47,141 bases of DNA. Source: Ancalomicrobiaceae bacterium (GTDB lineage: Bacteria; Pseudomonadota; Alphaproteobacteria; Rhizobiales; Ancalomicrobiaceae). Both the position numbers and the translations under genes were made by a program. The notes below the pieces were generated by a model. The model was given only the letters and a program-made list of their open reading frames with translations. It was not told the origin of the DNA and did not search any database. Positions 436 to 12,165 of the stretch are shown in pieces. Where the stretch lies: the NCBI GenBank assembly GCA_031291595.1, contig JARLIU010000290.1:1-47141 (forward strand). Direction: 5' to 3'. How positions within the stretch are numbered: the first letter of the stretch is position 1; every line of letters starts with the position of its first letter.

Positions 436-2157
436 ATGACAGTGAGCACCGCAAACGCTATCCTCGATCCGAGGGGTAAGCGCGATCCCGCACATCTCAA
501 GCTGGCTCAGCGGGTGGATCTCGAGACCCTCCGCAAGGGACCGGTGGTGTTCTATGACAACACCAAACTCAGCTTCTGCAACTACATGGAGGTGTTTCGG
601 CGGATAAAGGCCAATTTCGCCAAGCAGGGCATCACCAACATCATCGATTTTCGCGAAACGGTGCGCGGCAAGTCGACCCAGGGCCTGAAGGATTATGCCG
701 CCAAGAAGCTGGCCTCGGTAAAGCCCGTTGCGGCAATTGTCGCCATTGGCGACATGGGGACCAGTCCGGCAACGACGATCGTGACCATCGCATTGGAAGA
801 ACTGGGCATCCCCAGCGTCTATATTACGGCACCTCCCGGCGCCGATCTGGTGAAGGGCGTGGCCTACTATCGGGCCGGACACCTGTGTCTGTGTCCGATC
901 GATATCTATCAGGGCAGCACCGTCGAGGAGATCGACGAAAAGATCGATGCGGCCATGCCCGTCATCTTCGATTCCCTCACCCTGCCCGGCACGGCGATCA
1001 TGGCTCGGGCGTCGCTAGACTTCGCTCTCGACAGAGATCCTCCGTCGGATGACGGCATCCTCCGGCAGGCCGAAAAGATCACGCTGAGCACCGAAGCGCG
1101 TTCCGAGCCTGCCGCCGGTCTCGAAGAAATCACCGATCTTTTCAATGAACTGCACCTCGGAGACGGGTTGCCCATCGTTCCGCCGACGCCCGCTCGCCTA
1201 AAGCGGATGATGAGCTATTGCCCGTTCCACGAAAACGAGGTGCTGGCCAAGGAAATCGGCCCAAGCGGCAAGGACATCATCGTGCGTGACGTCGCGCTCG
1301 CCGCCGTCATGGCCGGGTGCAAGCCGACCGCCATGCCGATTCTGATCGCAGCGTTCAAGGCCATGGCCAACGCGCGCTACAACTTCCTGCAGTCGGTCAG
1401 CACGTCGCATCCGGGCGGAAACATGGTCCTGGTCAGCGGTCCGCTGGCAAAGGAGATCGGCATTTATGGCGGTCCGGGCTGCCTCGGCCCCGGCTTTGCC
1501 GCCAACATGACCATCGGACGGGCCGTCAACCTCGTGCTGGTGAACACCTGCCGTACGGTTCCAGGGATCTCGGATCTGGCGTGCATCTCGTCGCAGGCCG
1601 AACTGAGCTTCTGCTTTGCCGAAGATCCGTCGCTCACGCAGTGGAAGACGATCAATGCAGAGCGGTATGATGACCAGACGACGACGGTCTACGTGCTCAA
1701 GGCTGAGCCGCCTCATGATATCATCGATTTCTTGAGTCTGACCGGCGGCGACCTGCTCGACACGATTGTCGACAGCTGCACCACCCTCGGCTCCAACAAT
1801 GCCTATATGCCGGGTCCTCTCATCGTGGTGATCACCCCGGATCACTATTGGCTATTGGAGAAGGAAGGCTGGACCAAGCAGTCCATCCGCGAGCACATCC
1901 ATCGCTATGCCTTCAATCAAGTCCCGATGGTCCGCGACAGGGGCCTGGTTCCGGTCCGTCCGGAAAGCTTCGCGAATCGGCACCCGATGCCGGTGACGCG
2001 GACACCCGCCGATGTCGAAATCGTGGTGGCGGGAGGACGCGGTGGCCATTCCGCCGTCATCCTGCCCTGGGCCCTGCACAGTGAAGGGATCGTCGAGAGA
2101 GTCCTGCTGCCAGGAGGAAGGGTTCCCAAGTCGATCGAGGATTTCAGGGTGAAATAG
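436..2157 (+). CDS. UGSC-family-like two-domain protein lacking the selenocysteine/cysteine motif
   Basis: A 573-residue protein. I chose the ATG at 436 because AGGAGA (424-429) sits 6 bp upstream; an earlier ATG at 409 has no such site. Residues about 30-190 look like the domain of the UGSC family of (seleno)proteins: a beta-strand, a glycine-rich turn (AIGDMGTS), a helix and LGIPSVYI. In that family, as I recall it, the turn carries Sec/Cys-Gly-Ser-Cys; here it reads Met-Gly-Thr-Ser, so the redox pair appears lost. The second part starts near LGDGLPIVPPTP, continues with VMAGCKPTAMP and GGPGCLGPGF, and is often found in the same protein family without known chemistry. Several cysteines remain in the C-terminal half. 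No signal peptide or membrane segment is seen. The gene stands alone: a strong hairpin follows it and an integrase remnant and tRNA lie beyond. Function unknown. Confidence 0.7.
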   Translation: MTVSTANAILDPRGKRDPAHLKLAQRVDLETLRKGPVVFYDNTKLSFCNYMEVFRRIKANFAKQGITNIIDFRETVRGKSTQGLKDYAAKKLASVKPVAAIVAIGDMGTSPATTIVTIALEELGIPSVYITAPPGADLVKGVAYYRAGHLCLCPIDIYQGSTVEEIDEKIDAAMPVIFDSLTLPGTAIMARASLDFALDRDPPSDDGILRQAEKITLSTEARSEPAAGLEEITDLFNELHLGDGLPIVPPTPARLKRMMSYCPFHENEVLAKEIGPSGKDIIVRDVALAAVMAGCKPTAMPILIAAFKAMANARYNFLQSVSTSHPGGNMVLVSGPLAKEIGIYGGPGCLGPGFAANMTIGRAVNLVLVNTCRTVPGISDLACISSQAELSFCFAEDPSLTQWKTINAERYDDQTTTVYVLKAEPPHDIIDFLSLTGGDLLDTIVDSCTTLGSNNAYMPGPLIVVITPDHYWLLEKEGWTKQSIREHIHRYAFNQVPMVRDRGLVPVRPESFANRHPMPVTRTPADVEIVVAGGRGGHSAVILPWALHSEGIVERVLLPGGRVPKSIEDFRVK

Positions 2158-3431: not shown

Positions 3432-6400
3432 TTGGCCATTCTGACCGCTCTCCACCACGTCACCAGCTACACCTACGACCGGCCGATCAATCTCGGCCCG
3501 CAGGTGATCCGCCTGCGGCCGGCGCCGCACGCCCGCACGCCCGTACGCGGGTATTCGCTCAAGGTCCTGCCCGAACCGCATTTCGTCAACTGGCAGCAGG
3601 ATCCGCACGGCAATTGGCTGGCGCGCTACGTCTTCGCGGAAAAGACCACCGAATTCCGCATCACCGTCGATCTCGTCGCGGAAATGGCGGTGTTCAACCC
3701 GTTCGACTTCTTCGTCGAGAGTTATGCCGACGACTATCCGTTCACCTATGCGCCGGACCTGGCAGTGGAGCTGGCGCCGTATCTGGTGACAGATCCGCCG
3801 ACGCCGCTCGTCGATGACTTTCTCGCCACGGTTTCACGCGACAAGACGCGGATCGTCGACTTTCTCGTCGAGATCAACCAGCGGCTCAGTCAGCACATCC
3901 GCTACGTGATCCGCATGGAACCGGGCGTGCAGGAGCCGGAAGCGACGCTGCAACTCAGATCCGGCTCCTGCCGCGATACCGGCTGGCTCTTGGTGCAACT
4001 GCTGCGCCGGCTCGGGCTCGCCGCCCGCTTCGTCTCGGGCTACCTGATCCAGTTGAAGCCGGACGTGCAGTCGCTCGACGGCCCGTCCGGCACAGACCAC
4101 GATTTCACCGACCTGCACGCCTGGTGCGAGGTCTATATTCCCGGCGCCGGCTGGGTCGGGCTCGATCCGACCTCCGGCCTGTTCGCCGGCGAGGGTCACA
4201 TCCCGCTTGCCGGCACGCCGCACTACGCGTCGGCGGCGCCGATCAGCGGGCTGGTCGATCCGGCGGAAGTGCATTTCGACTTTGCCATGAAGGTGACGCG
4301 CATTGCCGAGGCGCCGCGGGTCACGCTGCCGTTCTCGGATGCCTCCTGGGCCGCGCTCGATGCGCTAGGCCACAAGGTCGATCAGGACCTGAAGGCCGGC
4401 GACGTGCGGCTCACCATGGGCGGCGAACCGACCTTCGTCTCCATCGACGACTACCAGTCGGCGGAATGGAACACCGCCGCGGTCGGGCCGACCAAGCGGA
4501 CCAGAGCCGACGATCTCATCCGGCGGCTGCGCGAACGTTTCGCTCCCGGCGGCTTCCTGCACTACGGCCAGGGCAAATGGTATCCGGGCGAAAGCCTGCC
4601 GCGCTGGGCGTTCGGCCTCTATTGGCGCAAGGACGGCAAGCCGATCTGGCGCGATCCCAAGCTGATCGCGCGCGAGGATGGCAAGCGGGACGCGACCATC
4701 GCGCAATCCGAGGTGGTCGCCATGGGCATCGCCGAGCGGCTCGACATCGGCGGCGACTATGTCGTCGCGGCCTATGAGGATCCGGCGGTGTGGCTGGTCA
4801 AGGAGGCGGAGCTGCCGGCCAACGTCGACCCGGCGAATTCGAAGCTGGAGGATGCCGAGGAACGCTACCGCATCGCCCGGGTATTCGATCGCGGCCTGAC
4901 CAAGCCGACCGGCCATGTGCTGCCGGTGCAGCGCTGGAATGCGGCGGCCGGCTCCGGATGGTATTCCGAACACTGGCGCTTGCGGCGCGAGAAGCTGTTC
5001 CTCATTCCCGGCGACTCGCCCGTCGGCTATCGGCTGCCGATCGGCTCGCTGCCCTATATCCCGCCGTCGAGCTACCCCTATTCGAATGAACTCGATCCGT
5101 TCGCCGAGCGCGGGCCGCTGCCCGATCCGGAGGAATTGGCGCAGGTCTACCGGCGGTCCGTGCCGGCCGAACGGCAGACGCAGCGCTGGGTCGAAGAGAT
5201 CGGCGTGGATCAAGTGCGCACGGCGCTCACGGTGGAACCGCGCGATGGCGTCATCCACGTGTTCATGCCGCCGCTCGAAGAGCTCGATGACTACCTCGAG
5301 CTGATTGCTGCGATCGAGGCGACGGCCGAAGCCGCCGGCACCCCGGTGCATATCGAGGGCTATCCGCCGCCGTGGGATCCGCGCCTCGGCGTCATCAAGG
5401 TCACGCCCGATCCCGGCGTCATCGAGGTCAACGTGCAGCCGGCGGCATCGTGGGACGAATGCGTCGACATCAGCATCGGCCTCTACGAGGATGCACGGCT
5501 GTCGCGGCTCGGCACCGAGAAGTTCATGGTCGACGGCCGCCACACCGGCACCGGCGGCGGCAATCATGTCGTGGTCGGCGCCGCCTGGCCGTCCGACAGC
5601 CCGTTCCTCCGGCGTCCGGACCTGTTGAAGAGCCTCATCATCTATTGGCAGCGCCATCCGGCGTTGAGCTACCTGTTCTCCGGCATGTTCATCGGCCCGA
5701 CATCCCAAGCGCCACGGGTCGACGAGGCGCGGCACGACACGCTGTACGAACTGGAAATCGCGCTCGCCAATGTGCCGGATCCGGCTTCGGGGTTGGCGAC
5801 GCCGCTGCCGTGGATCACCGATCGACTGTTCCGCAACCTGTTGACCGACGTCGCCGGCAACACCCATCGCACCGAGATCTGCATCGACAAGCTGTTCTCC
5901 CCCGATGGGCCGACCGGCCGGCTGGGGCTGGTGGAATTCCGCTCGTTCGAGATGCCGCCGGATCCGCGCATGTCGCTGGCCCAGCAGCTGCTGTTAAGGG
6001 CGCTCGTCGCCATGCTGTGGGCGCGGCCGATCGACGGGCCGTTGGTGCGCTGGGGGACGGCGCTGCACGACAGGTTCATGCTGGACCATTTCGTCTGGCA
6101 GGATTTCCTCGACGTCCTCGCCGATCTCGGGGGGGCGGGCTACGGCTTCGATTCGGAGTGGTTCACGGCGCAGCGCGAGTTCCGCTTTCCGTTCTGCGGC
6201 TCGGTCGAGCATTCCGGCGTGACGCTCGAGATCAGGCAGGGGCTCGAGCCGTGGCACGTCACCGGCGAGGAGGGGGCGACAGGTGGCACGGCGCGCTACG
6301 TCGATTCCTCGGTCGAACGGCTGCAGATCAAGGCGACCGGGCTGGTCAAGGGCCGGCACGTGGTCGCCTGCAACGGCCGCCGCGTGCCGATGACCTCCAC

Positions 6401-6737
6401 TGGCAAAGTCGGCGAGATGGTCGCCGGCGTGCGCTTCAAGGCATGGCAACCGGCCTCGGGCATCCATCCGTTGCTGCCGGCGCAGGCGCCGCTGACCTTC
6501 GACGTCCTGGACACCTGGACCGGGCGGTCGCTCGGCGGCTGCGTCTATCACGTCGCGCATCCGGGCGGACGAAGCTACGAGACGTTCCCGGTCAATTCCT
6601 ACGAGGCGGAAGCGCGGCGGCTCGCCCGCTTCACCGACCACGGCCATACGCCTGGATTCTTCACTCCGGCCCCCGAGGAGAGCACGAAGGAATTTCCGCT
6701 GACGCTCGACCTCAGGCGGCCGGCTCACCTGGCTTGA
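3432..6737 (+). CDS. Transglutaminase family protein with DUF2126 domain
   Basis: 1101 residues, a usual length for this two-domain family. The start is a TTG at 3432 ([13 protein letters not shown]), matching the conserved N-terminus of the transglutaminase N domain; no good ribosome binding site is seen. Residues about 1-290 form a bacterial transglutaminase-like domain with a visible Cys-His-Asp triad: C180 in GSCRDTG, H229 in DLHAWCE and D245 in LDPTSG. The remaining roughly 800 residues are the large DUF2126 region, rich in conserved Trp, Gly and Pro segments ([33 protein letters not shown]). Such proteins are encoded with circularly permuted ATP-grasp and alpha-E genes and have been proposed to process or couple a peptide made by the ATP-grasp partner; the substrate is unknown. 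It is the first gene of a three-gene operon, probably cytoplasmic, with no signal peptide. Confidence 0.92.
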
Positions 6738-6795
6738 TCGGCGCCCGATAGTCCCGCACGATGGCGGCTTGGGCAGCGAATGGGGGCGACGACAG

Positions 6796-9339
6796 GTGAC
6801 GCCGACGGATCAGCTCGAGTTCGAGATGCGGTTCGGCGGCAGGGTCCGGCCGGATCTCGCGCCGCTCATCGCCGGCTATCGGCCGCATCCCGGCGTCTAT
6901 GACGAACTCATCGATGCCTCCGGCGGCATGCGTTCGCATTGGGAACCGCTGATCGGGCAGCTTGCCGGCTACGGCACGGAAGCGACGGCGCGCATCTTCG
7001 AGGCGGCCGACCGGCATCTGCGCGACGCCGGCGTCGTCTATCGCGTCTATGACGGGCCGGGCGGCGCCGAGCGGCCCTGGCCGCTATCGCATCTGCCGCT
7101 GGTCATGCCGCTCGCCGAATGGCAGATCCTGGCCGACGGCATCGTGCAGCGTGCCCGGCTGCACGAAGCGCTGCTGGCCGATCTCTACGGCGAGGCGCGC
7201 ACGGTGAAGGAGGGCCTCGTCCCGGCGGCGCTGGTCGCCGGCAATCGCGAGTACCTGCGCCCGCTCATCGGCGTTTCGCCGACCGGAGGGGCCTATCTGC
7301 ACCTCTACGCCGCCGACGTCAGCCGCGCTCCGGACGGGCGCTGGTGGGTGCTGAACGATCGCACGCAGGCGCCCTCCGGCCTCGGCTATGCCATCGAGAA
7401 CCGCATCGCGCTGTCGCGGGCGGTGCCGGAGCTGTTCCGCAGCCTCAACGTCGACCGGCTGGCCGCGTTCTACCAGCGCTTCCGCGCCTCGCTGGCGAAC
7501 CTTGCCGGCCGGCCGGATCCGCGCATCGCGGTGTTGAGCCCCGGACCGCTCAACGAGACCTATTTCGAGCACGCCTATCTCGCCCGCTCAATGGGGTTTC
7601 TGCTCGTTGAAGGCGGCGACCTGACGGTGCATCGCGATGCGGTCTATGTGCGCACCGTCGACGGCGCGCAGCGGGTCGATGCCATCATCCGGCGGATCGA
7701 CGCCGATTTCGCCGATCCGCTCGAACTCAATACCGCCTCGCGTCTCGGCGTGCCCGGGCTGATCGAGGCGATCCGCGCCGGCACCATCATTCTCGCCAAT
7801 GCGCTCGGCTCCGGCGTGGCGGAGGCTCCGGCGCTCGGTGCCTATCTGCCGGCGCTGGCCCGGCGGCTGATCGGCGAAGACCTGCAGCTGTCCAATCTCG
7901 CCACCTGGTGGTGCGGCGATCCGGCTGTCAGGGCCGACGTCATCGCGCATTTGAACGAACGCGCGGTGCTGCCAGCGTTCGGGCGCACGCTGTCGAACGG
8001 GCAGATGGAGCATTCCGGCATCGTCGGCGCCGGACTGACGTCGCCCGAGCGCATCCGGCTGATCGGCATGCTGCAGACCAGGGGCCTCGATTTCATCGGG
8101 CAGGAGCCGGTCAGGCTCGCCACCACGCCGGTGTGGGAGCGCGGTCGGCTGGTGCCGCGTCACTATGCGCTCAGGGTGTTCGCGGCGCGCGCGTCCGACG
8201 GCTGGCATGTCATGCCCGGCGGTCTCTGCCGCATCTCCGAACGGGCGGACGCACGGCAATTGTCGATGCAGCGCGGCGGGCGGTCGGCCGATGTCTGGGT
8301 CACCTGCGATCGGCCGCCGGACTGGTCGATCCTGGTGCCGGCCCCGGAGGATGTCGAGGTCAGCCGCGAGACCAGCGCGCTGCCGAGCCGGGCGGCCGAC
8401 AACCTGTTCTGGCTGGGGCGCTATCTCGAACGCGCCGACGCGCTGCTGCGGCTGGTGCGCGGCCTCGTCGGCTGGGGCAGCGAATCCGGCCCGAGCGATG
8501 ACGAAGAAACCCCGTCGGAACGACTGTCAGGGATCCTCGCCTCCTGGGGCGCCATTCCGTTTGCCACGACCGAGCCACGGGTCGCCGCCGCCGAAGCGCT
8601 CAGGTCGGAATTCGTCGGTGCGCTGCCGTCGGTGCTCGGTCAGGCGCTCAGGACCGCCTCTGCCGTGCGCGACCGGTTGTCGCCCGACGCCTGGAGGGCG
8701 CTCGGCGAGCTCTCGGCCAGCTTTCCGCCGCACCGGCAGGGCGCCGAGCGCGACGACTTGGCGGGCGCCGCGGATCGCTCGGCGCCGGAGATGTCGGATC
8801 GCATTGAGGCGGCGCTCAGGACCATCTCGGCGCTGGCCGGCCTGGCGCACGAGAACATGAACCGCGCTGGCGGCTGGCGCTTCCTCGATCTCGGCACAAG
8901 GGTCGAACGGGCGATCGTGGTGGCGCGGTTTTCCCGCCGCATGGCGCAGCCCTCGTCGGACCCGAGCCTCGCCATCTCCTCGCTCGACCGCCTGCTCGAC
9001 CTGACCGACGCGCAAACCGCCTATCGGGCACGTTATCTGAGCGGACCGGCGCTGAAACCGGTGCTCGACTTGGTGCTGCTCGACGCTTCGCATCCGCGCT
9101 CGGTGGCGTTTCAAGTCGAGCGCATCGTCGCGCATCTCGACAAGCTGGGCGGACGCGGGCTGCAGACGCAGCCGGATGTGGCGCAGACCCGGGCGTATCG
9201 GCTGTGCGAGCGGCTGCGGCGCATCGAGGTCTCCAGCCTTGGCGAAGAGGCGATCGTGGAGACGGAAGCAGCGCTGATGGTGATTTCCGATGCGATCACC
9301 GAGCGCTATCTCGCCGGTCCACCGCCGGCCGAGGATTGA
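6796..9339 (+). CDS. Circularly permuted ATP-grasp / alpha-E fusion protein
   Basis: About 847 residues from the GTG at 6796; a TTG at 6769 would add 9 residues, and neither has a clear ribosome binding site. Residues 1 to about 480 are a circularly permuted type-2 ATP-grasp domain (DUF404/DUF407 type): VYRVYDGP, WPLSHLPLVMP, the WWVLNDRTQAPSG.GYAIENR core that carries nucleotide-binding residues, SPGPLNETYFEHAYLARSMGFLLVEGGDL and IANALGSGVAE-like segments. From RAADNLFWLGRYLERAD to the end is an alpha-helical alpha-E (DUF403) domain. In many bacteria these are two genes; here they are fused. The family is proposed to be an amide/peptide ligase making an unknown peptide or tag. It sits 58 bp after the DUF2126 gene, and a second transglutaminase gene follows 62 bp later. 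Confidence 0.9.
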   Translation: MTPTDQLEFEMRFGGRVRPDLAPLIAGYRPHPGVYDELIDASGGMRSHWEPLIGQLAGYGTEATARIFEAADRHLRDAGVVYRVYDGPGGAERPWPLSHLPLVMPLAEWQILADGIVQRARLHEALLADLYGEARTVKEGLVPAALVAGNREYLRPLIGVSPTGGAYLHLYAADVSRAPDGRWWVLNDRTQAPSGLGYAIENRIALSRAVPELFRSLNVDRLAAFYQRFRASLANLAGRPDPRIAVLSPGPLNETYFEHAYLARSMGFLLVEGGDLTVHRDAVYVRTVDGAQRVDAIIRRIDADFADPLELNTASRLGVPGLIEAIRAGTIILANALGSGVAEAPALGAYLPALARRLIGEDLQLSNLATWWCGDPAVRADVIAHLNERAVLPAFGRTLSNGQMEHSGIVGAGLTSPERIRLIGMLQTRGLDFIGQEPVRLATTPVWERGRLVPRHYALRVFAARASDGWHVMPGGLCRISERADARQLSMQRGGRSADVWVTCDRPPDWSILVPAPEDVEVSRETSALPSRAADNLFWLGRYLERADALLRLVRGLVGWGSESGPSDDEETPSERLSGILASWGAIPFATTEPRVAAAEALRSEFVGALPSVLGQALRTASAVRDRLSPDAWRALGELSASFPPHRQGAERDDLAGAADRSAPEMSDRIEAALRTISALAGLAHENMNRAGGWRFLDLGTRVERAIVVARFSRRMAQPSSDPSLAISSLDRLLDLTDAQTAYRARYLSGPALKPVLDLVLLDASHPRSVAFQVERIVAHLDKLGGRGLQTQPDVAQTRAYRLCERLRRIEVSSLGEEAIVETEAALMVISDAITERYLAGPPPAED

Positions 9340-9401
9340 CGGCGGCGCTTCGGACCGTCACTTTTCCTGTTCCCGATGCTTTTCGAACCGCCATTGGCGT
9401 C

Positions 9402-10343
9402 ATGGCCCGTGCGACGACCTATGAGATCCGTCATCTGACCGCTTACGAGTACCGTATGGCGGTGCCGTTCGCGCGCTGCGTGCTGCGGCTGACGCCGATC
9501 GACCGCAGCGGTCAGGTGGTGCGTTCGGCCGGGCTCGAACTCGATCCGCCGCCGGAGGAATGCCAGGAGGGCACCGACGATTTCGGCAACCGCATCATCC
9601 GCATCGCCTTCCATCGGCCGCACACGCGGCTCTCCATCCGCTCCTATGCCCGCGTCGAGGTTGTCGACGCCGATGCCGACGCCGCAGTCGGTGCGCTGGC
9701 GGCCCGTTCGCCCAATTGGGAGAGGATGTGCGATCTGGCGTTGGCCGGGCGCGACATCCGCGGGCTGGCCCCGGTCGGCTTCCTGTTTTCGAGCCGCCTC
9801 GTCGTGCTCGCCGATCCGATCCTCGCTTATGCGGCGCGCTCGTTCGAGCCTGGGCGGACGGTCGTGGCAGCCGCGATCGATCTGACCCGCCGCATCCGCC
9901 GCGATTTCGTCTACGACCCGGCCGCGACCAACGTATCGACGCCGGTGCTGGAAGCCTTCCACGCGCGGCGCGGCGTCTGCCAGGATTTCGCCCACGTGAT
10001 GATCGCCGGGCTTCGCGCCCTCGGCGTGCCGGCCGCCTATGTCAGCGGCTATCTCAGGACCGAGCCACCACCCGGTCAGCCACGGCTCGAAGGCGTCGAT
10101 GCCACGCATGCCTGGGTGTCGGTGTGGTGCGGGCCGGAAATCGGCTGGATCGGGCTCGATCCAACCAATGGCATCGCCGCCGGCTCGAGCCATGTCGTCC
10201 TGGCCGTCGGACGCGACTATTCCGACGTTTCGCCGGTCGACGGCGTGGTGCTGACGGCCGGCGAGCAGGGTTTGCGCGTCGCCGTCGACGTGGTCGAGGT
10301 CCCTGCTGCTGCCAAGACCGGCGACCAGAGCATGGCCGACTAG
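9402..10343 (+). CDS. Transglutaminase family protein (small, single domain)
   Basis: 313 residues from the ATG at 9402, chosen because MARATTYEIRHLTAYEY is the typical opening of the transglutaminase N-terminal beta domain; the open frame extends further upstream but overlaps the preceding gene. The cysteine-protease-like core is intact: C193 in GVCQDFAHV, H236 in DATHAWVS and D253 in LDPTNG. Enzymes of this type cleave or exchange amide bonds. It is the third gene of the DUF2126 / ATP-grasp-alpha-E / transglutaminase operon, so the operon has two transglutaminases, one fused to DUF2126 and one alone. No signal peptide. The proteasome-like peptidase gene that sometimes accompanies such clusters is not next to it; a TerC gene follows instead. 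Confidence 0.9.
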   Translation: MARATTYEIRHLTAYEYRMAVPFARCVLRLTPIDRSGQVVRSAGLELDPPPEECQEGTDDFGNRIIRIAFHRPHTRLSIRSYARVEVVDADADAAVGALAARSPNWERMCDLALAGRDIRGLAPVGFLFSSRLVVLADPILAYAARSFEPGRTVVAAAIDLTRRIRRDFVYDPAATNVSTPVLEAFHARRGVCQDFAHVMIAGLRALGVPAAYVSGYLRTEPPPGQPRLEGVDATHAWVSVWCGPEIGWIGLDPTNGIAAGSSHVVLAVGRDYSDVSPVDGVVLTAGEQGLRVAVDVVEVPAAAKTGDQSMAD

Positions 10344-10481
10344 GCCGGATAACAGTGTCGCGCCATTGCACTCGTCCGGAGGCGACCCCACCTGAGACGG
10401 ACAAACAAGGGGCGTGCATGGTGGCGTCCGGTCGCGGCCGGGTCCCCGGCCGGCGAGCAGCAAACGAGGTGAAGTCGTTCC

Positions 10482-11183
10482 ATGCTGACGGACGCATTTG
10501 CCACGGAGGCGGTCTCCGACCTCGTGGCACTGGCGAAGGTCGTGTTCATCGACGTTGTGCTCGCCGGTGACAACGCGGTGGTGGTCGGGATGGCCGCCGC
10601 CGGCGTGCCGCACGCGGTGCGCGGTCGCGTCATCTTCTGGGGCATTGCCGGTGCCGTCGTGCTGCGCATCCTGTTGGCGGTGTGCGCCACGCACCTGCTG
10701 GCGCTCGTCGGCCTGACCTTTGCCGGCGGCATCCTGCTGCTTTGGGTGTGCTGGAAGATGTATCGCGAAATCCGCGAGGTCAGGGTGCTGGTGCAGCGCA
10801 TCGCCTCCGGACCGCAGCCGCTGCTCGCGGTGCATCTGCCGCAGAAGAGTTTCCGCCAGGCCATTCTGCAGATCGTCGTCGCCGACGTGTCGATGTCGCT
10901 CGACAACGTGCTGGCGGTCGCCGGCGCGGCACGCGACCATATGGTCGTGATGATCCTCGGCCTGGTGCTGTCGGTCGGGCTGATGGGATCGGCAGCCTCG
11001 ATCATCGCCAACATGCTGCACCGCTATCGCTGGTTGATGAAGGCGGGCCTCATCGTCATCTTTGTCGTGGCGGTGGAGATGATCTGGCGCGGCAGTCAGG
11101 AGATCGCCTGTTCGGGCTTCGGCTCGGAGATGTGCCGGCACGGGGTGATCGACTATCACGCCGTGATGTCGAGCTTCAGCTGA
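10482..11183 (+). CDS. TerC/YjbE family integral membrane protein
   Basis: 233 residues with about seven hydrophobic segments. Two internally related motifs mark the TerC family: FIDVVLAGDNAVVVG (residues 22-36, D24 and D30) and VADVSMSLDNVLAVAG (residues 133-148, D135 and D141), in which membrane-buried acidic residues probably bind a metal ion. YjbE-type members have been linked to manganese export or metal supply of exported proteins. The ATG at 10482 follows GAGGTGAAG about 8 bp upstream. A 138-bp gap separates it from the transglutaminase gene, so it may have its own promoter. I looked for the manganese-sensing yybP-ykoY leader often found before such genes and could not see its conserved core. 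Substrate is not shown by the sequence. Confidence 0.88.
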   Translation: MLTDAFATEAVSDLVALAKVVFIDVVLAGDNAVVVGMAAAGVPHAVRGRVIFWGIAGAVVLRILLAVCATHLLALVGLTFAGGILLLWVCWKMYREIREVRVLVQRIASGPQPLLAVHLPQKSFRQAILQIVVADVSMSLDNVLAVAGAARDHMVVMILGLVLSVGLMGSAASIIANMLHRYRWLMKAGLIVIFVVAVEMIWRGSQEIACSGFGSEMCRHGVIDYHAVMSSFS

Positions 11184-11403
11184 GGCGCCGCTGGCTCGAT
11201 TCGCTCGCAGGTTACGATCCCGTCATGATTTTCGGCTGGCTATTGGGCAGCCGAGGTCCTAGAAATTCGTTGCTCCAGATCGGCTCGCCGCTGAGGTCGC
11301 CGGTCATCGCGATCGGCAGCAACGAGTTCAGGGCGGGACGGCGAAAGCCGCATGCACTTTTCGCCCTCGCGCTCCAGAAAAGCGAATGTGGGAAACGGCC
11401 AGG

Positions 11404-12165
11404 ATGAGCGGAGCCATCTATCCCGATCTCGACGGCAAGGTCGTTCTCGTCACCGGCGGCGGCTCGGGAATCGGAGCCTCGATCGTGCGCCATTTCACCC
11501 GTCAGAAGGCGAAAGTCGGCTTCATCGATATTGCACGCGAGCCGTCCGAAGCGCTGGTCGCCACGCTTTCGGCCGAGGGCGCAGAGGTCGTCTTCCACGA
11601 GGCCGATCTGACGGATACCGCGTCGCTGCGCAACGCCGTCGAGGCCGTCAGGACCCGGCTGGGGCCGATCGGCGTGCTCATCAACAATGCCGGCCATGAC
11701 GAACGTCACCGGATCGAGGATGTGACGCCGGAGTTCTGGGACGAGCGGATGGCGGTCAACTTGCGCCATCAGTTCTTCGCCGCCCAGACGGTCGTCCCCG
11801 ACATGAAGGCGGCGGGCTTCGGCTCGATCGTCAACCTGGGCTCGATCAGCTGGCTCGTCGGCGTCGGCGGGCTCGTCGCCTATGCCACCGCCAAAGCCGG
11901 AGTGCTCGGCTTGACCAAGGCGCTCGCCCGCGACTTCGGCCCATTCAACGTCCGGGTCAACGCCATCGCTCCCGGCTGGATCATGACCGAGCGCCAGCTC
12001 GGCAAATGGGTGACGCCGGAGGCGATCGCCGACGCGCTCAACCGTCAATGCCTGAAGCGCCGTTTGGTGCCGGCCGACGTTGCCAAGGTGGCGATGTTCC
12101 TGTCGTCGGAGGAGGCGAGCGGCTGTACCGCGCAGCAGTATATCGTCGACGGCGGCTGGGTATAG
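11404..12165 (+). CDS. xylB: SDR oxidoreductase, D-xylose 1-dehydrogenase-like
   Basis: 253 residues, standard for a classical short-chain dehydrogenase. It has the NAD(P)-binding TGGGSGIG (17-24), NNAG (94-97) and the catalytic S147-Y160-K164 set (GSISW...YATAK). The opening 'MSGAIYPDLDGK', the 'NNAGHDERH' segment and 'GSISWLVGVGGLVAYATAKAG' are very like the xylose dehydrogenase XylB of Caulobacter as I remember it, which oxidises D-xylose to xylonolactone with NAD+ in the Weimberg pathway. The neighbouring aldehyde dehydrogenase fits the last step of the same pathway. The ATG at 11404 gives the family's usual N-terminus. The exact sugar (xylose, arabinose or another) is inferred, and the pathway's lactonase and dehydratases are not in this window. 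Confidence 0.75.
   Translation: MSGAIYPDLDGKVVLVTGGGSGIGASIVRHFTRQKAKVGFIDIAREPSEALVATLSAEGAEVVFHEADLTDTASLRNAVEAVRTRLGPIGVLINNAGHDERHRIEDVTPEFWDERMAVNLRHQFFAAQTVVPDMKAAGFGSIVNLGSISWLVGVGGLVAYATAKAGVLGLTKALARDFGPFNVRVNAIAPGWIMTERQLGKWVTPEAIADALNRQCLKRRLVPADVAKVAMFLSSEEASGCTAQQYIVDGGWV

Follow-up and report, generated by a model that had tools for sequence, protein, structure and literature searches.

The proteins of the UGSC family carry selenocysteine (Sec) or Cys at the first position of a short redox motif and Cys at the fourth. Near the beginning of the 47,141-nucleotide window, that is, the whole stretch of DNA analysed here, a gene encodes a protein with a UGSC-like domain in which these two positions are M107 and S110. 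The locus raises the question of what such a domain does when its motif holds neither Sec nor Cys, and where the chemistry of the protein might now reside.

The features of the gene are collected in Table 1. The reading frame contains no internal stop, AGGAG at 424-428 lies 7 nt 5' of the ATG at 436, and a second in-frame ATG is present at 409. The Pfam model UGSC (PF24696) matched residues 9-132 with 27.2 bits (E 5.1e-6), above its gathering cut-off of 25, and matches at E up to 1 were obtained for 30 of the 31 aligned members of the clade described below. The NCBIfam UGSC equivalog NF041046, with a cut-off of 125, gave 18.8 bits for the window protein and 23.8 and 24.0 for its homologues from Sporomusa and Vibrio. 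When the N-domain profile of the 31 clade members was compared by hhalign with that of 23 canonical UGSC domains, 181 columns were aligned with E 7e-19 (1.9e-16 with a larger canonical set), against a best E of 0.097 for 12 unrelated control profiles. The UGSC kinship asserted by the original prediction is thereby borne out. In the same type of profile alignment, GDMGTS of the clade sits opposite the canonical GDCGSC, and M-G-T-S occupies residues 107-110 (nt 754-765, codons ATG GGG ACC AGT), so that the claimed reading of the motif position also stands. The fusion to a domain of DGLPIVPPTP type was likewise correctly recognised, as the signature begins at residue 243 and the profile of the C-terminal half matches the separate canonical partner proteins with E 1.7e-77. 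No Pfam or NCBIfam model matches this DGLP half, and a PDB sequence search returned nothing relevant.

Table 1. Position of the fusion gene, its domains and its conserved residues in the window
Feature	Position	Strand	Basis
M-G-T-S-type UGSC-DGLP fusion protein, 573 aa	436..2157	+	ORF and translation; AGGAG 5' of start; full-length homologues
N-terminal UGSC-like domain, residues 1-222 (limit set from alignment)	436..1101	+	Pfam PF24696; hhalign; AlphaFold2 model
D106-M107-G108-T109-S110, at the canonical (G)D-[U/C]-G-S-C position; loop from beta3 (99-105) to helix 110-122	751..765	+	alignment; secondary structure of model; codons
C151-L-C153, just before/in N-domain strand 5	886..894	+	C151 31/31 clade, 0/24 canonical; C153 26/31
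C-terminal DGLP domain, residues 223-573	1102..2154	+	profile match to separate partner genes; model
DGLPIVPPTP signature, residues 243-252	1162..1191	+	translation; conserved in canonical and M-G-T-S forms
C295 in AGCxP, kept in both forms	1318..1320	+	31/31 clade, 28/29 canonical partners
C349 in GxGCxGxG, clade-invariant, mostly absent from canonical partners	1480..1482	+	31/31 clade, 6/29 canonical partners
R362 in GRA, invariant in both forms	1519..1521	+	31/31 clade, 29/29 canonical partners
C393-x-x-E396, kept in both forms	1612..1623	+	C393 31/31 and 26/29; E396 31/31 and 29/29
C448 in DSCTTLGSN, not invariant	1777..1779	+	25/31 clade

For comparison, the canonical form was collected from two samples. 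The first round gave 26 loci; two of these, L056 and L069, contain a DGLP gene without a UGSC partner in the examined stretch, which leaves 24 N-domains, 10 with TGA and 14 with Cys (the fragment U_L073 is counted here and is absent from the 23-row hhalign profile). A survey of the window's class found 97 UGSC places in 38 of 385 genomes, and 91 of the 97 contain one in-frame TGA. The motif was read at 40 of these places (36 with in-frame TGA, 4 with Cys). Sec or Cys occupies the first motif position in 24/24 and 40/40 domains and Cys the fourth in 24/24 and 39/40, giving 64/64 and 63/64 for the combined set. One canonical-type UGSC domain (L145) reads C-G-S-S, in which the first Cys is kept and the second lost. 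As many as 8 UGSC matches were observed in a single genome of the survey (G818), and many of the surveyed places sit in frames long enough to be fusions.

The canonical UGSC domain is regularly accompanied by DGLP. In a plasmid collection, 20 records match the window protein; 16 of them hold a canonical UGSC domain, and in every one of the 16 the DGLP match either shares the frame of UGSC or is no more than about 220 bp away. The distance is below 500 bp in 38 of the 40 loci added from the class survey. The arrangement varies: the two genes overlap with UGSC first in Natrinema zhouii, the DGLP gene comes first in Roseovarius and Arthrobacter, the Acidovorax plasmid p2-T1 carries a fused Sec form whose motif includes an in-frame TGA, and fused Cys forms are found in Variovorax boronicumulans and Neorhizobium. 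This association was found here and is not a curated criterion; the window protein displays it in the fused state. The Global Ocean Sampling survey of 2008 (PMC2398784) had already described UGSC fused to a conserved domain of unknown function, termed Unknown_1, and in its account UGSC is among the more abundant marine selenoprotein families; Unknown_1 of that account probably corresponds to the DGLP domain. Additionally, two selenoprotein genes were seen to be misannotated. The fused selenoprotein of Acidovorax sp. T1 p2-T1 (L012:7947-9600) is annotated as a short hypothetical protein ending at the in-frame TGA, the remainder of the frame having no listed gene, and the TGA-containing UGSC gene of Paracoccus ferrooxidans pFER4 (L059:4408-4977) is annotated as two hypotheticals, with selB a few kb away.

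The M-G-T-S replacement, which the original prediction had presented for this protein, turned out to be a property of a whole clade. Outside the window, 32 further loci were found in several phyla, 2 of them plasmid homologues and 30 from the genome collection, all colinear fusions with 44-77% full-length identity to the window protein. The plasmid homologues, from Sporomusa termitida (60% identity) and Vibrio europaeus (47%), both read MGTS. The lineages represented are Desulfovibrio-type bacteria, Dehalococcoidia, Acidobacteria, Bacillota, Actinomycetota, alpha- and betaproteobacteria, Serratia, Vibrio and Xenorhabdus. The clade was collected by scanning with N-domain peptides from outside the motif, and conservation of the motif is therefore not built into the sample. 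The alignment of 31 rows omits the two plasmid homologues and L042, a shorter ORF of 517 aa whose motif also reads MGTS. Across these 31 members, D106 and G108 are invariant, and the remaining positions read M28/V2/I1 at 107, T27/V3/I1 at 109 and S29/A1/C1 at 110. In a tree of the C-domain all 31 fall on one side of a single branch of length 1.61 with support 100/100. It can be seen from the alignment that 96 of 573 columns are invariant, 24 of the 96 lying in the N-domain. Of 86 candidate stretches in viral contigs, none was confirmed. A literature search at the level of titles and the beginnings of abstracts found no description of the M-G-T-S form. Two loci show more than one relevant gene. 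L022 contains the fusion gene as a tandem duplicate (7977-9692 and 9833-11548), the second copy reading IGVS, and L041 contains a canonical DGLP and Sec-type UGSC pair (6-842 and 988-1503) followed about 6.5 kb further on by a divergent clade member reading MGIC.

Since V or I at 107, V or I at 109 and A or C at 110 are tolerated, the motif position would hold neither a selenol/thiol centre nor an obligatory nucleophile, and judged from the alignments selenol or thiol chemistry at 107-110 is very unlikely. What is conserved instead is a set of residues around the old site. N42, T43, K44, R77, G78, P134, G135, Y145, R146 and C151 are invariant across the 31 aligned members, and D156, Y158 and Q159 are nearly so. 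G135 stands in place of a canonical F (24/24) and D156-I157 in place of a canonical H-P (20/24 and 22/24). C48 is present in 25/31 members, a figure that, like others of its kind, is partly shaped by the scan, one peptide of which held this region. Other near-conserved cysteines of the clade are C262 (30/31) and C383 (28/31).

The original prediction had offered two alternatives, namely a transfer of activity to cysteines of the C-terminal half or a non-redox protein. Both of the cysteine strings that it quoted, GGPGCLGPG and DSCTTLGSN, are present in the protein, with C349 and C448. Of these two, C349 is invariant in the clade (and 6/29 outside it), and C448 is not. The two alternatives also miss a third, the N-domain residue C151. 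A conserved cysteine elsewhere in this domain had been named as an outcome that would speak against the proposal, and C151 is such a residue; the other outcome so named, a lack of relation to UGSC, is contradicted by the profiles. C295 and C393, which were not among the cysteines named at that time, are those common to the canonical and M-G-T-S forms. The conserved strings of the C-domain may have a structural role.

The AlphaFold2 model of the protein (pTM 0.89, mean pLDDT 87.9) presents the N-domain as five alternating beta/alpha units with strands at 37-41, 69-73, 99-105, 127-131 and 152-154. In this model most of the clade-invariant N-domain residues come directly after the end of a strand, and C151 lies just before the short fifth strand. 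Strand ends are the usual active-site edge of such alternating folds. The order of a Trx-type domain is beta-alpha-beta-alpha-beta-beta-alpha. The UGSC fold is described as probably Trx-like in PMC2398784, whereas the model of the window protein has five alternating units and the best among the matches listed for it, with Z about 10, appear Rossmann-like. A Foldseek search with the full model gave no match at E up to 0.001. The best VIA-align result was a LacI-type regulator (9kpr_B; Z 10.4, 2.9 A, 130 residues) with many unrelated Rossmann-like proteins close behind, and these matches would indicate the fold class only. For the C-domain, the model of which used an alignment without L044 (a duplicate of L028), Foldseek likewise found no match at E up to 0.001. 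Encapsulins (Z 6.6 over about 80 residues) as well as cytosolic fumarate hydratase and PrpD-like enzymes (Z about 5 to 5.6) were considered as fold relatives of this domain and discarded, their values being in the range of common arrangements.

In the host genome the gene appears as a stranger. The order sample contains 2 genomes from the genus of the host and 10 from its family, and none of them gave a match; the gene has a GC of 0.605 and a GC3 of 0.767, compared with 0.659-0.702 and 0.846-0.860 for four neighbouring ORFs; for these reasons it was probably acquired horizontally. SelA gave no match in the host genome (95.65% complete; E. coli as positive control). Window position 1 is the start of the contig, and the upstream side of the gene lies beyond it. 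Downstream, a tRNA-Gly (gcc) is found on the minus strand at 2893-2967, soon 3' of the fusion gene with its low GC, and this may be an integration neighbourhood. It is followed at 3432-9339 by a DUF2126/transglutaminase protein and then a circularly permuted ATP-grasp/Alpha-E protein. These first downstream genes of the window give no pathway hint.

Of the 33 clade loci, 12 have an FAD oxidoreductase (PF12831), the commonest neighbour found, no more than 3 kb away, and 6 (Vibrio, Serratia, Xenorhabdus) have an enolase paralogue at such a distance, compared with 0/23 for each in a canonical set that leaves out L056, L069 and L041; queries with both gave no match in the 40 further canonical loci. 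The annotations place aconitase X and DUF126 close to the Sporomusa and Vibrio genes, and a cluster of aconitase X homologues is present in 5 loci. TctA-cluster genes occur in 5 loci (Pfam identity checked in L034 only) and DctP proteins in L020 and L043. Aconitase X enzymes have been described as cis-3-hydroxy-L-proline or phosphomevalonate dehydratases (PMC5144071, PMC8184944, PMC10040528). These neighbours suggest small-carboxylate metabolism. The neighbourhoods vary by sub-group, and one shared pathway does not emerge. In Vibrio and Serratia (L011, L037, L038 and L042) the cluster was observed to consist of aconitase X, DUF126, the M-G-T-S fusion, the enolase paralogue, an AzlC/AzlD exporter and an AraC-type regulator; of these, Xenorhabdus (L039 and L040) has the fusion together with the enolase paralogue and the regulator. 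The idea of a phosphonate-type cluster, prompted by the enolase and aconitase-X neighbours of Vibrio, Serratia and Xenorhabdus, was followed into the literature, and the search gave nothing useful.

Thioredoxin reductase was also considered as a marker of the difference between the two forms. In the first sample it was near 0/33 clade and 9/23 canonical loci (p 1.1e-4), and among loci with 4 kb on both sides near 0/19 and 8/18 (p 0.0011). With only 2/40 in the further canonical loci, the pooled figures became 0/33 and 11/63 (p 0.014, for clade members that are not phylogenetically independent). The contrast, which had appeared strong, faded from 9/23 to 11/63 in the larger sample and was abandoned as such; it is at most a weak hint.

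At the level of sequence, the clade, the loss of its motif, its conserved residues and its two-domain architecture are established. The explanation that we favour, with moderate confidence, is a distinct clade of fusion enzymes that has given up the chemistry of the motif, still binds a ligand and performs catalysis with residues partly shared with the canonical form and partly its own. The two domains would be the counterpart of the two-gene system, in which a UGSC selenoprotein or Cys protein and a DGLP partner are normally adjacent or fused, and the Sec/Cys-G-S-Cys motif at the end of N-domain strand 3 would have become M-G-T-S. The strict polar conservation around the old site (N42-T43-K44, R77, D106, Y145-R146) would imply that the N-domain still binds something and is probably no mere spacer. 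Because C295, C393, E396 and R362 are conserved in both forms, they are suggested to do work common to both; catalysis would most likely depend on them together with C151 and C349, which are specific to the clade, and a thiol relay from the N-domain would not be needed. Such a division of labour would have the two domains cooperate. As to the reaction, a lyase, isomerase or hydrolase type acting on a small carboxylate may be guessed, as the neighbours include tripartite tricarboxylate, TRAP and ABC transporters, the FAD oxidoreductase, and enolase or aconitase-X paralogues.

The loss of the motif is compatible with redox chemistry elsewhere in the protein, which has four invariant cysteines and the FAD oxidoreductase as commonest neighbour. 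The main rival builds on this. It holds that the protein is still a thiol oxidoreductase, the pair having moved from 107/110 to, for example, C151-C349, C151-C153 or cysteines of the C-domain, with electrons supplied by the neighbouring FAD oxidoreductase and not by thioredoxin reductase. The invariance of C151 and C349 within the clade and their absence or rarity outside it agree with such a move, as do the many near-conserved cysteines (C262, C383, C153, C48, C448), the 12 loci with the oxidoreductase and the many members from anaerobe-type lineages. However, most of these cysteines are missing from one member or another, which leaves C151, C295, C349 and C393 as the only candidates for an essential role; 13 aligned copies of the FAD oxidoreductase share a single invariant Cys and contain no CxxC; and thioredoxin reductase is near none of the 33 loci, a thioredoxin-like match being seen at one only (L031). 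On balance this explanation appears unlikely.

A second rival regards the N-domain as a remnant without catalysis, structural or allosteric in role, and the DGLP domain alone as the enzyme. This would account for the disappearance of the motif, for inert residues being accepted at its three variable positions, and for DGLP genes such as those of L056 and L069. A mere spacer would be expected to drift, yet the N-domain holds a quarter of the invariant columns, including the charged residues K44, R77, D106 and R146 at strand ends, and all 30 genome-collection loci stay fused; a dead domain is thus improbable. Lastly, a pseudogene, an assembly error or a chance resemblance to UGSC is scarcely credible and can be regarded as refuted by sequence conservation, for although the Pfam score is only 2 bits over its cut-off, the NCBIfam equivalog score is far below its own and the genome is broken into 319 contigs with a contamination of 3.4%, the 32 other loci come from unrelated assemblies, the controls are at E 0.097 or worse and 96 columns are invariant.

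The favoured reading, a fusion enzyme without chalcogen chemistry at the motif, can be placed among known systems as follows. The window protein resembles UGSC (PF24696, NF041046) in N-domain homology, in the N-terminal DPxG and DNxK segments, in the position of the (G)DxG loop and in the association with DGLP. It differs in that the clade lacks Sec/Cys at 107 and 110 apart from one C at 110, in the exchange of F135 and H156-P157 for G135 and D156-I157, in the gain of C151 and in its score below the equivalog cut-off. It resembles the UGSC/Unknown_1 fusions of PMC2398784 in that a UGSC domain is joined to a conserved domain, as in the fused Sec examples seen here, such as Acidovorax p2-T1; unlike it, the fusions described in that survey contain Sec. 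A more distant similarity concerns the canonical family. Against five PF07355 (GrdB/PrdB-type) proteins, which are close relatives of each other with partial Pfam matches, canonical UGSC gave hhalign E-values of 5.4e-5 one way and 5.8e-6 the other, with no control below 0.088, and a 63-sequence canonical profile gave 1.5e-4 and 4.3e-6 (controls 0.036 or worse). The motifs are in register, DCGSC lying opposite NCPVC, and the PrdB motif is given as UxxC in Table 2 of PMC2398784. The M-G-T-S N-domain aligned with the GrdB/PrdB-like profile of the same five closely related proteins at E 0.0033 and, unlike GrdB/PrdB, has no UxxC or CxxC motif. The alignment may serve as a lead for the chemistry of canonical UGSC and makes no claim of membership for the M-G-T-S clade.

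The window gene is best read as a paralogous enzyme that has kept the two-domain architecture and abandoned the selenol/thiol chemistry of the N-domain motif. A wider scenario, somewhat short of probable and offered tentatively, is that a Sec-built reductase turned into a non-redox or differently wired family, in which scaffold and ligand pocket were kept, both chalcogens lost, C151 and C349 gained, and the gene spread horizontally across phyla into carboxylate metabolism. A label of "UGSC (seleno)protein" transferred by Pfam match alone would be wrong for this clade. The fixed pairing with DGLP and the weak alignment with GrdB/PrdB are concrete leads on the chemistry of the canonical family. 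Moreover, a large clade without the Sec/Cys motif in which the surroundings of the motif are kept constitutes a natural experiment, which could part the redox role of the UGSC-DGLP pair from its roles in ligand binding and as a scaffold.
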